Assembly: GCA_030682495.1 (NCBI GenBank) | Contig: JAUXOC010000057.1 | Location: 1 to 64,000, forward strand | Source of the DNA: Alphaproteobacteria bacterium | GTDB taxonomy: Bacteria; Pseudomonadota; Alphaproteobacteria; Micavibrionales; UBA2020 | Direction of reading: 5' to 3' | DNA length: 64,000 bases | Shown here: one piece after another, positions 43,465 through 50,014 of the stretch | Numbering within the stretch: the first letter of the stretch is position 1 | Layout of the letters: every line of letters starts with the position of its first letter | Program-made: the position numbers and the translations under genes | The notes under the pieces: model-generated | Database searches by the model: none | Told to the model about the DNA's origin: nothing | Seen by the model: only the letters and a program-made list of their open reading frames with translations

Positions 43465-43539
43465 TGGGGTGTAGCCAAGCGGTAAGGCAGCGGTTTTTGG
43501 TACCGCCATTCCTAGGTTCGATCCCTAGCACCCCAGCCA
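43465..43539 (+). tRNA. tRNA-Gln (anticodon TTG), CCA encoded
   Basis: Acceptor TGGGGTG/CACCCCA, anticodon stem GCGGT-TTTTGGT-ACCGC, T-arm CTAGGTTCGATCCCTAG, 3' GCCA. Confidence 0.95.
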
Positions 43540-43749: not shown

Positions 43750-44895
43750 GTGGAACTCATCAACAATCTCGACGCGATCAATCACCAAAAGGCCATCGCG
43801 AGCTATGCCGAAAATGCAGATCATATAATTATCGTTAGCCCCTTCATATTCGATGATTTTTCCGAGTGGTTTAAAAATACGAATCTTTCATCCCTAAGAA
43901 AAGTTGAACTTGTCACAAGCCTGGCCGAGTCTGGCGACAACCAAATCAAGAAACCATTTGCGTTAAAGTCGTTCTTTGATTGCTGCGAGCAATACGCAAC
44001 AAACGCGGAAGTATGTATCCATGCCAACAATAAACTGCACGGAAAAATCTATTTATTCAGAAAATCAGATATGTGGCTTGCTGGAATTATTACTTCAGCA
44101 AACTTTACATGGTCGGGCTTGGAAAAAAATCATGAATGGGGAATATTAACAAGAGAACCCAGATTTCTGGACACTCTTTATAAGCAAGTATTTTCTTCGT
44201 TTGAGTATGAGAACATTCCTAAAAGACTCATTACTACAAAACTCATTCCTGCCGCAGAGCAGTTTAAAAAGAATAATACAGACGTGATGGATATACCTCC
44301 TGCAAGAGTCGGCCTATTAAACCTTCTTGAAAGAAACTACCCGAAGGCAAATGAGACGATCGACCTTGACCTTGAACATGCAAAAAATATCTTCTTAAAA
44401 CCAAACGGAGACAAAGATAATCCAGTCAGTCTCGAAGACAGACGCCCCTTTGGTCCCAACAATAAAGCCTTACACTTCCCCAAAAATCCTGCCCCTAGCG
44501 ATGTAATGCCGGGGGACGTGGTCATATCCTTTGGAACGGGGTCACGCGCACTGTTGTGCATACATACGGTACTGACCAGAGCGGAAGAGGCTTCACTAGA
44601 ATTACAGAGAAGAGACAAGAACGCGGCGCGCTGGCCATGGTATGTATCAGGACGCAACCATACACCATATTTCGGAGATCGCTGGTGGGAATACAACATC
44701 ACCGTCGACAATATAAGAGATGAGTTCCTAAAAGAATACCCAGGTAAATCTATCACCGGGAACAGCAACTCACTTGGTGCGTTCAATTACGGCGCTGGTA
44801 AACTATCTATTACATTAGATTTCGCACGATATATTGTAGAAAAAATAATGAAAATTGAGGCTGAAGGGAAAGCACCGCCTTCATCTAATTCGTAA
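43750..44895 (+). CDS. PLD-like (NgoFVII/BfiI-type) nuclease-domain protein, possible PUA/EVE-like C-terminal domain
   Basis: GTG start with AGGAGA upstream; 'KLHGKIYLFRKSDMWLAGIITSANFTWSGLEKNHEWGIL'; C-terminal 'PGDVVISFGTGSRALLCIHTVL...ARWPWYVSGRNHTPYFGDRWWEYNI'. Confidence 0.75.
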   Translation: MELINNLDAINHQKAIASYAENADHIIIVSPFIFDDFSEWFKNTNLSSLRKVELVTSLAESGDNQIKKPFALKSFFDCCEQYATNAEVCIHANNKLHGKIYLFRKSDMWLAGIITSANFTWSGLEKNHEWGILTREPRFLDTLYKQVFSSFEYENIPKRLITTKLIPAAEQFKKNNTDVMDIPPARVGLLNLLERNYPKANETIDLDLEHAKNIFLKPNGDKDNPVSLEDRRPFGPNNKALHFPKNPAPSDVMPGDVVISFGTGSRALLCIHTVLTRAEEASLELQRRDKNAARWPWYVSGRNHTPYFGDRWWEYNITVDNIRDEFLKEYPGKSITGNSNSLGAFNYGAGKLSITLDFARYIVEKIMKIEAEGKAPPSSNS

Positions 44896-46278
44896 ACGTT
44901 CGAAATATCTGCTTTCCGACAAAAGAATCGGAGACTTTCTCGCGTCGGGCAATATCACGGATAGTCACCCCCCGGAAATGCTCGTCCCGCCAGACGAATC
45001 CCTGAATAAGCTTCTTCAGCTCGGCTGCCGGCAAATCAAACATGTCTTTGGGCGTATTCTCGGGCCTAATAACAATGGCGCCCTTGCGAGATCTGTTGAT
45101 CGCATACGGAACACTGATGACCGTTCTGTCTGGAAGAAGGGTGATGAACAGTTCATTCTGACGCATTTCAACGCGTTCAATAGCCGAAACAATTTCATGA
45201 GTAGGCGTACATTCCTGAACGCCTATATGCTGGCGGACGGATTTCTCGACAAGACTCTCTATCTCGAAAGCCGGTATCCTTGCCCCTTTGCCGGCACGAC
45301 GCAAACCCTGGTCAATATAGTATCTATAGCGCTTTCCATTTTTGATCGTAAACGTGGGGCCATAAAGTCTGCCTTCCGCATCGAAAAGAATCCCCTGCAG
45401 TAAGCTTTCATCCTTCGCCTTTCGACATCCACGCGGTGACGCCGCCTGCTCTTGCAACTTTTGCTGAACGGCATCCCATACATCCCGAGAAATGATTGCC
45501 GGATGTTGTCCGTCATAGACCTTATCTTTGTGCTTTATTTTTCCGATATAAATCGGGTTTGTCAGTATCGTATAAATGGCGCCTCTTGAAAAAATGGCAT
45601 CTCCGTATTCTCTTCCTTTGTCCGATACCCTTATGGGAGTTTTGATACCACGTTCCTGTAGCTCCTGCGTCAGTTTATATACGCTGCCCAATACCAAATA
45701 TCTGTCAAAAATATGGCCTGCAAGACCAGTGTTTTCTACATCGACGAAAAGCTGGCGATTTTCTGCCCGATAGCCGACCGGAGGCGTCCCTCCCATCCAC
45801 ATGCCTCTCTTTTTACTCGCGGAAATTTTATCCCGGATACGCTCTCCGGCCACTTCACGCTCAAACTGGGCAAAAGATAGAAGCACATTCAGAGTCAGGC
45901 GCCCCATGGATGTCGTGGTATTAAAAGATTGCGTCACACTGACAAATGTTACGCCATGATGATCAAAAATTTCGACTAACCTCGAAAAGTCATCAACGAT
46001 CTGGTCAAGCGGTCAATTTTATAAACGACAACGGTATGGACCTTACCCCTTTTAATATCTTCAATTAACTCAGCCAAAGCCAGTCGCTCCATCGAGCCGC
46101 CAGAAAAGCCTCCGTCGTCATATGATTTTTTTACTGCCGTCCAGCCTTCGGCTTTCTGGCTCGTGATATACGCGAGACAGGACTCGCGTTGAGCGTCAAG
46201 GGTGTTGAACTCCATTTCTAATCGCTCATCCGTCGATTTCCTGGTATAAATAGCGCAATATTTTGTACCGGCTTTCAT
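44885..46278 (-). pseudogene. Large serine recombinase, split by a single frameshift (ORFs 45976-46278 and 44885-45937)
   Basis: N part 'YCAIYTRKSTDERLEMEFNTLDAQRESC...VYKIDRLTRSLM', C part 'VTQSFNTTTSMGRLTLNVLLSFAQFEREVAGERIRDKI'; the +1 frame bridges with 'DFSRLVEIFDHHGVTFVSVTQSF'. Confidence 0.9.
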
Positions 46279-46724
46279 CCGGCACCGCCTTTACGCTTCA
46301 GACCGAAAAAATCCCATCCGTTCCGCCGACATCCAGAGATCAGCGTCGCAACCTGTGAAAGGCTCCGGTATACAGTGCCTTGGTATTCGTAGCCATGCGC
46401 CTGCACCAGAACGGAATGCCGGACGCCGCCGTGCATACGCACAAGCCGGGTACCCGGCTTGATCTGAGGTTCATTGTCATCGAAACACCGGGAATTTCTC
46501 TTATAAGCCTTTATCATCAGATCAAGGCGCATTTGCTGATCCGGCGCCAAACCGCCGGTTTCCAGCTCTTTCAGCCTGAACTCGAGGCTTTTCTCGAGCA
46601 TTGTGCGGCCAATGAGCCCATGCGGCTGCACACCCCAGTACTCAGCCCATTTCCGGCGCAAGTCGGCCAGTGGAAGGCCGGTAATGGTATTGTCATATAT
46701 TTGATTTAATTGATTCTTTTGCAT
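46275..46724 (-). CDS. DUF2924-like protein, partner of the serine recombinase
   Basis: 'ADLRRKWAEYWGVQPHGLIGRTMLEKSLEFRLKELETGG...RLVRMHGGVRHSVLVQAHGYEYQGTVYRSLSQVATLISGCRRNGWDFFGL'. Confidence 0.88.
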   Translation of the reverse strand: MQKNQLNQIYDNTITGLPLADLRRKWAEYWGVQPHGLIGRTMLEKSLEFRLKELETGGLAPDQQMRLDLMIKAYKRNSRCFDDNEPQIKPGTRLVRMHGGVRHSVLVQAHGYEYQGTVYRSLSQVATLISGCRRNGWDFFGLKRKGGAG

Positions 46725-46862
46725 TCATAACCACCTCCCATATGTCCATGAACGCTTGCTTTTAAGAGGAAGTCCAGTCGATTTTTTCGGGTAAATCACT
46801 GACTTAAATCATTTAAAAGATACGATAATCGCTCATCACCACAAGCTTGATAGGAAGCAATA

Positions 46863-47735
46863 ATGGACAAAAAGGTCTGCGTCAGATTTTTTCAACTGCG
46901 TCGTAATTCTGAGAACGATATGTCTTTTTCAGACTGCCTTGCGTCTATCGCCGCCGCCCGACTGGGGGAGTGGATAGACTTGGGCGATGACGTGCTTGTC
47001 CGGCTTGAGCGTCATCAGCTTGATGGCGCCTTCATCAAGGGAGAATTCACCCGAAAGCAAACTACCAATATTCCTCCGAAAGCAAACGGTGATGGAGACC
47101 CTCTTGTTGCAAGCGCCGACCCGATCGCGCACAGAGCAGCATTTCAATATCACCCGGCTCTTTCTATCCTGGCTCTTGAATCAAACAAGCAGGGGATGAC
47201 ACTCGCCAAAATTGACAAAATGATTAAACAAGCTCTCCATCATTCAGGATTCGATTACCTGCCAGTCGCATCCGATGCTGCCTGGGAGAAGTTTTCCTCC
47301 TGCAGCCCCCGAAAAATGACACTTAAGGTGGCAAACCCGGAAAACCTTTCTGTCGCAGAAAACGCAACACGATCTGTCGCCCAAAATCTGAATGACCTGA
47401 AAGAAATATTTGGTGGCCCTGTCATAGAAGTTTCCGTCGGTTTTGGCCGACAGAGGGAGGGAGCGCTCAACAAAAGAGCATTGGTGTCTTTTTTCGGCGA
47501 CCTGATTCGGCAACAAGAAGCCGGTTATAGAGGGGTTCAAAAAATTGAAATCAAAGCTGAAGGAGAAGAAGAGCCTATTGATCTCCTTCTGGAACAAGTT
47601 AAAGAGAAAGACGTTTTAGATCTTAGCGATACCAATATTGAGGAACACTATAGGTCCAGGCGACAGTTTATAGAGCGCGCATTCGGTAAATATTTACCGT
47701 CGATGCGAGCCACCTACGGTCAAGCAGCAGCATAA
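46863..47735 (+). CDS. Soluble 290-aa protein, RexA-like candidate (first gene of a two-gene operon)
   Basis: RBS AGGAAG before ATG; no TM; colinear pattern resemblance to phage lambda RexA recalled from memory; multi-TM partner 3-6 bp downstream. Confidence 0.5.
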   Translation: MDKKVCVRFFQLRRNSENDMSFSDCLASIAAARLGEWIDLGDDVLVRLERHQLDGAFIKGEFTRKQTTNIPPKANGDGDPLVASADPIAHRAAFQYHPALSILALESNKQGMTLAKIDKMIKQALHHSGFDYLPVASDAAWEKFSSCSPRKMTLKVANPENLSVAENATRSVAQNLNDLKEIFGGPVIEVSVGFGRQREGALNKRALVSFFGDLIRQQEAGYRGVQKIEIKAEGEEEPIDLLLEQVKEKDVLDLSDTNIEEHYRSRRQFIERAFGKYLPSMRATYGQAAA

Positions 47736-47741
47736 CTCGTG

Positions 47742-48218
47742 ATGAAAATAGACATATATTCTTTTTTGCCCGCTTCTCTAATAACAGGCATTTACTTCTA
47801 TAAAATGAATACAGTCCATCAATTTATTAGAGAGGTAGATCTAGATCTCCAAATAATTTTTTCAGGAGCATTCAGCCTCTGTGGAATTTTAACAGGGTTT
47901 TTATTTACAATTTATTGCTTCATAGCGGTGAGCAGCAACGCATTTATAGACAGGATTCGAAATACACACACATTCTACGGCGCAAAATCTTTCGTTATAA
48001 AAACAATCCTTATAAGCCTTTTCTCTACCTTCTATTCGCTGCTTCTATCAGCATTCAGATGGCCGCTAACAGAAGCAACGGTAGATGTATATACAAAATT
48101 TACGCTTTGTGGCTGGCTTTTTATTTTTACAGCAAACATCCTGTATTTTTTAAGATGCCTGCAGCATTTTATGCTTATGGCAGATGGGTTACCGCCCCAG
48201 AAACCGCCCGCTGGATAA
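47742..48218 (+). CDS. Multi-TM (3-4) inner-membrane protein, RexB-like candidate
   Basis: Hydrophobic segments 'FLPASLITGIYFY', 'IIFSGAFSLCGILTGFLFTIYCFIAV', 'FVIKTILISLFSTFYSLLLSAF', 'FTLCGWLFIFTANILYFLRCL'. Alternative GTG start at 47739. Confidence 0.55.
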   Translation: MKIDIYSFLPASLITGIYFYKMNTVHQFIREVDLDLQIIFSGAFSLCGILTGFLFTIYCFIAVSSNAFIDRIRNTHTFYGAKSFVIKTILISLFSTFYSLLLSAFRWPLTEATVDVYTKFTLCGWLFIFTANILYFLRCLQHFMLMADGLPPQKPPAG

Positions 48219-48247
48219 AAATACTTTCTTCAATTTTTGATATCACC

Positions 48248-48919
48248 TTACGCAGCGATGCCCATCACCACACTATTCCATGCAGTTCGATGCTCATGGG
48301 CTATTGCTTTATCATTCTGCAAAAGTTCCACATAAGCAGGGAATATTAAGCTAGGGTCATTTAGAAGGCGGAGATAGTATCTGATTGACGGCATAACGCC
48401 GTTAGCAATAACTTGGCAGTCATATACAGCCTTAATGTTTTCGATAACTTTTCGCGCACCTTCATCTGGCTCACAATTTTGGTGCGTCGTTAGGATGTAA
48501 TAGCGTGATATCGATTTATCCATCACTTTAAGCTGAACATCCGCTGCAATTGCCTCTGTGATTGACAAATTGTGTTTGACTTCAACAGCTTCGAAAATTC
48601 CTTCCAATGTATCATCAGATACCTCGATATCGCCAATAGACCCTGTTTGAGAATCAGCAGCTGAATGCTCATTAAGAGGCTTTACGGTTTTTCCGTCATA
48701 CCTGCGAAGCTCCGGCACCATAACGCTATAAATAGCATGGAGTGCCAGAACGGGAAGCCTTGATGCTCCTTTCGCCCCTTTATATGATCGGAAAAAGTGC
48801 TGATGGAAGATCTCAACTATTGTTCCGATATCATGGGTTTTTGGTATCGAAAGTGTGATCCGAACCTCTTCGCGCCGATCATAGCAACGGGCTTCAGCCA
48901 TGTATGCACGGATGTCCAC
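48248..48919 (-). pseudogene. PD-(D/E)XK-type restriction-endonuclease-like protein, probably N-terminally truncated
   Basis: 'GSIGDIEVSDDTLEGIFEAVEVKHNLSI' D...ExK motif; N-terminus collides with the divergent recombinase remnant. Confidence 0.5.
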
Positions 48920-49565
48920 GGATCATCAGAAGTATTCGACCGAAAATCAGGCCGATGCTATTCGGGAATATGCCGTGCGCCGAAACATGGAGACCGTCAG
49001 GACTTATACCGATGCGGGGAAAAGCGGCCTTAAACTCGACGGCCGCGATGCCTTAAAGCAGCTCATCTCAGACGTGCAGTCCGTTGCGGCGGAATTCTCG
49101 GCCATACTCGTACTGGACGTAACCCGCTGGGGTCGGGATTTCCGCTATATTGAGATCAACCGGCAACTTCGCAAGCTTTACCCCGAAATCGTCGAGGGGG
49201 CGATCCGACGCATTCAGGAGATGGGCGGCGTTATCCGCAGAGAGGTGACCAATGACCTTATAGTCCTGAATGAAGAGATTAAAGTTTCGGTCGTTATCTG
49301 CAGATGTGTTCAAACCGCGGCTGGCTCGAACAGGTGGAAATTGCATCTGGATACAGGGCTTCTGCCGGACATTACGATCGTCATCAGGATGGACGAGAAT
49401 ACCGTCGCCCCGCTTGATTATTATTTACTGCCCGCTATCGACATCGAAAACCCGAAAATCCGACTTACCGACAATAACCATCTGGCTCTTGAAGCTTACC
49501 GGTTCGAAGATTTGGAGCCCTTTTTCATGCTGATAGAGCGCACAGAAGTACCGGAGGCCGCATGA
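48900..49565 (+). pseudogene. Serine recombinase with a large internal in-frame deletion
   Basis: Resolvase N-terminus 'MYARMSTDHQKYSTENQADAIREYAVRRNMETVRTYTDAGKSGL...LDVTRWGR' joined directly to the family C-terminus 'RRIQEMGGVIRREVTNDLIVLNEEIKVSVVICRC...LLPDITIVIRMDENTVAPLDYYLLP'. Confidence 0.8.
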
Positions 49566-50014
49566 AGAAAGAAAATACCTCCAAGGTTACGATGATTGAA
49601 ATAGATCGAATAAATATCCTGAACCCGCGTGTCAGGAACAAGAAAGCCTTTAATCAAATTGTCGATAATATTGCCCAAGTCGGCTTGAAACGGCCGATAA
49701 CCGTTACGCCCTGCCTATCCGGCACAACAGGAAAGGAGTATGATCTGGTCTGCGGCCAGGGTCGCCTCGAGGCTTTTCTCTCATGCGGACAAAGGCCCGA
49801 AAAGAAAGAGCACCTGCAGCAGAAACGCGACATTCAACTGGGGTTTGACGCAGAAATATTGAGCCTCGAAATCGGTAAGATTATGCCCATCAAAACTATA
49901 TCTGAGAGAGTGCGCGGTTCACGCCGCTACCAGCAGATCGTCGTTTCGATCAGAGAAGTCGGCATTATAGAGCCTCCCGTCGTGACGCCGTCGCCACATA
50001 TGAAGGGACGATAA
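49562..50014 (+). pseudogene. Fusion of two ParB/RepB-like N-terminal fragments
   Basis: 'MIEIDRINILNPRVRNKKAFNQIVDNIAQVGLKRPITVTP...DLVCGQGRLEAFLSCGQ' followed by a second ParB-like start 'LSLEIGKIMPIKTISERVRGSRRYQQIVVSIREVGIIEPPVVTP', then stop. Confidence 0.8.

Follow-up and report, generated by a model that had tools for sequence, protein, structure and literature searches.

A DUF6731 and membrane-protein gene pair in a recombinase-flanked bacterial island: a probable divergent cassette of the RexAB type

The window analyzed here, a 64,000-nucleotide stretch of alphaproteobacterial DNA, carries two adjacent genes that probably form a divergent abortive-infection cassette of the RexAB type, of the kind made up of a DUF6731 protein and a four-helix membrane protein; we put the probability of this reading at roughly 0.7. 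The reading is built on what was observed for the pair, namely its gene architecture, the recurrence of that architecture, the predicted RexA/RdgC fold, the four-helix partner, and a similarity to RexA and RexB at the level of the families. The pair and its leader are:

46835..46862, + strand: leader with a plausible ribosome-binding site (AGGAAG) ahead of the first ATG, as read from the sequence
46863..47735, + strand: gene for the RexA-like protein, 290 aa, ATG start, no transmembrane (TM) segment; a DUF6731 (PF20505) relative and predicted DNA-binding sensor of RdgC/RexA fold
47739..48218, + strand: gene for the RexB-like small membrane protein, 159 aa, GTG start; predicted to have four helices, the second and third of them joined by a short basic loop

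The original prediction had described a TM-free ORF of 290 aa followed on the same strand, after 3-6 bp, by a 159-aa ORF with 3-4 hydrophobic segments, the two being AT-richer than their flanks and lying between recombinase modules. This description held up, with the coordinates exact. The intergenic gap is 3 bp to the GTG at 47739, or 6 bp to an alternative ATG at 47742. Hydropathy gives three strong hydrophobic segments in the membrane ORF, and its AlphaFold2 model has four long helices (6-28, 33-64, 82-105, and 112-149). GC content is 48.1% in the first gene and 37.3% in the second, against 58% in the flanks and 46.3% for the island (43750-50014), and serine-recombinase genes lie on both sides of the pair (left 44885-46278, right 48900-49565). 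For the claim of an own ribosome-binding site, AGGAAG is a plausible candidate at the first gene, whereas inspection of the sequence revealed no clear site before the second, and a promoter search in the leader gave no match above chance. The two-gene arrangement is more than chance: the first protein matches PF20505, and the layout recurs in 13/13 related loci.

What kind of protein does the first gene encode? A Pfam scan gave a single match, to DUF6731 (E 4.5e-6), with a score of 26.8 bits that falls 0.2 bits under the curated PF20505 gathering cut-off of 27. When a profile of 11 DUF6731-type proteins, from which the window sequence had been left out, was compared with the protein by hhalign, residues 3-255 were aligned with a probability of 97.6 (P 4.7e-12), and the score of 84.7 compares with a maximum of 21 in 120 shuffles. 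On these sequence comparisons the window protein is classed as an outlying DUF6731 member. A literature search found no paper naming DUF6731. Searches with the window protein alone found no relatives in 94 related genomes, nor in the contig, plasmid, and phage collections, and neither PADLOC nor NCBIfam had anything informative on the pair. Four viral-contig matches were rejected, as the similarity covered 39 residues within an unrelated phage protein beside a 1076-aa ORF.

The AlphaFold2 model of the first protein, built from a seven-row alignment, has a mean pLDDT of 66.8 and a pTM of 0.67; its N-terminal part and C-terminal helix are good, and positions 154-228 are poor (below 50). A Foldseek search of 350,542 PDB chains with this model returned as its top two matches E. 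coli RdgC (2owl, 9e-5) and lambda RexA (8twq, 1e-4), each with a probability of 1.00. The original prediction had named such a search as a check and unrelated folds as the outcome that would count against it, and on this point it was supported. The next PDB matches were inner-kinetochore CENP-L, CENP-N, and Iml3 chains, and the paper describing the RexA crystal structure gives RdgC and the Iml3/Chl4 kinetochore proteins as the structural relatives of RexA (PMC11077077). The TM-score of the model to RexA is only 0.39-0.40. Domains wrongly placed with respect to each other would produce such low values, and the match is thus good evidence for the fold but gives no precise superposition. A HMMER profile searched against the PDB found nothing. 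We take the first protein to have the two-domain, RdgC-like fold of RexA, as predicted by a model that is confident only in part.

Foldseek fails to separate RexA from RdgC for this protein, and RdgC is the top match. One alternative is that this RdgC/RexA-fold protein is a DNA-binding regulator of the mobile element that tunes recombination or a lysogenic switch, with defense incidental or absent. Non-specific DNA binding is common to RexA and RdgC, the lambda switch is biased by RexA (PMC11077077), and the window pair lies between recombinase genes, all of which would suit such a regulator. RdgC, however, shares with the first protein its fold (Foldseek 9e-5) and is otherwise a housekeeping single gene without a membrane partner, whereas DUF6731 was accompanied by a membrane protein in every locus examined. 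The similarity to RdgC is not above background at the sequence level (14.0 for the DUF6731 family profile against E. coli RdgC), Pfam RdgC does not match the first protein, and DUF6731 pairs are also found outside repressor regions. We regard a regulatory role of this kind as improbable, and return to the reading of the pair as a RexAB-type cassette.

Examination of the neighborhood across genomes, another check proposed with the original prediction, supported the pairing. Every one of the 13 distinct DUF6731-type loci examined, the window included, has a same-strand ORF of 138-175 aa with 3-4 TM segments directly downstream, compared with 0/106 E. coli genes examined as a control; an adjacent downstream protein of 100-190 aa with 3-4 TM segments was counted as a partner. 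The 13 loci span prophages, a tailless Vibrio phage, and bacterial chromosomes. Of 399 phylum-sampled genomes, 6 (source genome included) contain PF20505, as do 2 of 296 genomes of another order and 2 of 300 Pseudomonas-group genomes; phage and prophage records contain it too. Strong matches to the partner profile in the phylum sample came only from the five genomes with DUF6731, and since the members from those genomes were in the profile, this result shows only that there are no further strong copies elsewhere. In BFVD, a single phage, Siphoviridae sp. ctylc9, provides the best structural match for both window proteins (E 5.2e-15 and probability 1.00).

The genes around these pairs are varied. 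At least three phage or prophage loci have a CI-type repressor upstream of the pair, as in lambda. The DUF6731 gene of Pseudomonas phage AUS531phi lies 44 bp downstream of a Cro/CI-family regulator, S24-type repressors are found upstream on the same strand in one Halomonas and one Pseudomonas locus, and an HTH gene is located upstream of the pair in L020. The pair follows an integrase in L022 and in the tailless Vibrio phage. The latter, Vibrio phage 10N.286.54.F4_PE001, is a Vinavirales phage with a 14.6-kb genome, in which the DUF6731-like gene and the small membrane gene come right after the integrase (L010:1389-2896). An E. coli prophage carries a DUF6731 gene with that of a 150-aa membrane protein between the methyltransferase/lysis region and antitermination Q (L027:3737-5136); the source record is an 834-kb 'plasmid' that may be a piece of chromosome. 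One example of the E. coli prophage pair is at 907057-908456 of NZ_AP024126.

The second window protein had no family match, and weak Pfam matches to DUF2417 and MlaE (E above 0.06) were taken as chance. Against the profile of DUF6731 partners, again with the window left out, hhalign gave it a score of 29.1, where the null maxima were 18.8 in 120 shuffles and 18.0 in 45 real TM segments from E. coli and the window. The conserved core of the partner family is a Gly-Phe pair in helix 2 followed by a basic loop, and the 'short basic loop' singled out in the original prediction corresponds to it. When the source genome was searched in six frames with the HMM of the partner family, the window membrane protein did not come up, and it is therefore placed by hhalign, structure, and position. 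It is predicted, from the model, to be a small four-helix membrane protein.

The similarity to lambda becomes apparent when families are compared. The DUF6731 profile, without the window sequence, scored 28.0 against a lambda-group RexA profile, where the null maxima were 21.0 (120 shuffles) and 20.6 (51 E. coli ORFs), and the partner profile scored 26.6 against RexB, where they were 18.4 (shuffles) and 18.0 (45 real TM segments), with the alignment in register over helix 2 and the loop. Owing to shallow alignments, hhalign itself assigns only low probabilities to the family-RexA and partner-RexB comparisons (8.8 and 23), and it is the nulls that carry the argument. Each window protein alone, compared with the lambda RexA or RexB profile, stayed within the null, so the suggestion that the window proteins are directly colinear with the lambda Rex sequences was not confirmed, that similarity being at noise level. 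Neither the window proteins nor the scanned DUF6731 relatives matched Pfam RexA (PF15969) or RexB (PF15968), in a scan in which the lambda proteins themselves match at 1e-97 and 8.5e-92.

The window pair has the lambda gene order, with rexA followed directly by rexB on one strand, and its proteins are close in size to those of lambda (290 and 159 aa versus 279 and 144 aa). As in lambda, a soluble protein of RexA fold, here predicted, is combined with a four-helix membrane protein, likewise predicted, and family-profile similarity is above the null for both. The window pair differs from lambda rexAB in lying in a bacterial island flanked by recombinase genes and not behind a CI repressor. A test of Pfam RexA/RexB membership was negative, and the pair is therefore kept apart from RexAB proper; it appears to be an outlying member of the DUF6731 and membrane-protein cassette and a distant relative of RexAB. 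The original guess of a RexAB system is supported in part: the RexA-like fold, the RexB-like partner, gene order, and operon conservation speak for it, and the lack of Pfam matches speaks against it. Calling the system 'undescribed' was only partly right, given the RexAB-type systems already in the literature (PMC12894663, PMC6426596, PMC6426606).

By what mechanism might such a pair act? DNA binding, sensing, pore formation, and phage exclusion would be expected by analogy with lambda, Sbash, CarolAnn, and P. putida RexABpp, and we infer that the pair works like RexAB. The RexA-like protein would act, probably as a dimer of RdgC/RexA fold, by binding DNA without sequence specificity and detecting a phage replication or recombination intermediate or a phage protein. 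It may then contact the membrane partner at the cytoplasmic loop that joins helices 2 and 3 of the latter; the partner would form or open a pore and compromise the membrane, bringing growth to a halt and aborting the infection. Experimental precedents exist in lambda RexAB, Sbash, CarolAnn, and RexABpp, where overexpression of RexA is toxic only with RexB present and membranes turn permeable (PMC12894663). P. putida RexABpp (PP_5643/PP_5644) is related to lambda RexA by HHpred, and its phage defense requires both genes (PMC12894663). By its published description it has the same two-gene architecture of a RexA-fold and a four-TM protein, and it is repressor-adjacent, as are several DUF6731 pairs; the difference is that its role in defense was shown experimentally. 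Sbash gp30/gp31 and CarolAnn gp44/gp43 likewise combine a RexA-like protein with a four-TM protein, both required for defense, and the central cytoplasmic loop of the Sbash system is required. No sequence signal linked CarolAnn gp44/gp43 to the DUF6731 or partner profiles. The closest family by sequence is the DUF6731 (PF20505) and small membrane-protein cassettes themselves, with identical gene order in 13/13 loci.

The roles of the two proteins may instead be reversed, the RexA-like protein being the toxic or antiviral effector that the membrane partner sequesters until infection. Mycobacteriophage Butters gp30/gp31 has this wiring with the same gene layout (PMC12894663), and from sequence alone it looks no different from that of lambda. 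The membrane protein is nevertheless the effector in lambda and in the three other tested non-lambda Rex-type systems (PMC12894663), and DUF6731 members resemble lambda RexA. We give the reversed arrangement little credence, and keep the lambda-like one as the model for the window pair.

The island in which the pair lies and its left border have the following features:

43465-43539: tRNA-Gln, beside which the island begins
43750-44895, + strand: PLD-domain nuclease related to the NgoFVII restriction endonuclease (E 4.3e-10), with weak DrmC/ZacB matches and no methyltransferase seen beside it
44885-46278, - strand: large serine recombinase broken by a frameshift that separates the N-terminal resolvase part (45976-46278) from the rest (44885-45937)
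46275-46724: DUF2924 gene, just upstream of the split recombinase
48251-48919, - strand: 223-aa ORF similar to SacI-family restriction endonucleases, and, at 35% identity, to a portion of a Staphylococcus plasmid region whose annotation is cytosine methyltransferase
48900-49565, + strand: 221-aa ORF with a resolvase N-terminal domain (about 82 aa) and then sequence without a match
49562-50014: weak ParB_N ORF, overlapping the resolvase ORF

The recombinase at 44885-46278 and the DUF2924 gene are probably an inactive integrase module, and 48900-50014 looks like a chimeric remnant. The SacI-like ORF may be truncated, as its start overlaps the divergent resolvase ORF. With the PLD nuclease to the left of the pair and the SacI-like ORF to the right, the neighborhood resembles a small defense island. 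A search for attachment-site repeats around the island gave none of convincing length, and right-flank synteny in relatives is too poorly conserved to define an empty site.

The state of this island raises the question of whether the pair is a decaying remnant, a former RexAB-like cassette that has lost its function. The left recombinase is frameshifted, the right one has only its N-terminal domain, and the SacI-type endonuclease relative is without a partner methylase within the window. The most conserved motifs of DUF6731 and its partner are altered in the window copy, which has lost consensus residues (DDEGLxEKN to ADPIAHRAA, and NLxKTG to RIRNTH). Because of the frameshifted recombinase and the altered residues, decay is a real possibility, albeit an unlikely one: both ORFs are intact and adjacent, the first has a plausible ribosome-binding site, and the L004 and L010 members vary at the same motifs.

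A 2026 paper counted only five described RexAB-like systems (PMC12894663), and a larger family of Rex-like systems had been predicted in 2019 by those who described Sbash (PMC6426596). The recognition of DUF6731 as one Rex-like branch, in which it supplies the RexA-like member of a two-gene cassette that recurs across loci, is new as far as the literature searched shows. We lean toward the view that DUF6731 and its membrane partner are a widespread, unrecognized branch of Rex-type defense, carried by prophages, a tailless Vibrio phage, and bacterial islands; RexAB would then be a general mobile cassette of which the lambda version is one specialized offshoot, and the window pair would be a cassette outside any prophage. 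If DUF6731 is RexA-like, there are natural Rex variants in E. coli, Pseudomonas, Halomonas, a Vibrio phage, and other Pseudomonadota, on which the questions of trigger and pore could be addressed, in some cases in easy laboratory hosts. The E. coli version, labeled 'DUF6731 family protein | hypothetical protein' in RefSeq, is a prophage pair that is found at >=99% identity in 18 of 5,426 E. coli genomes.
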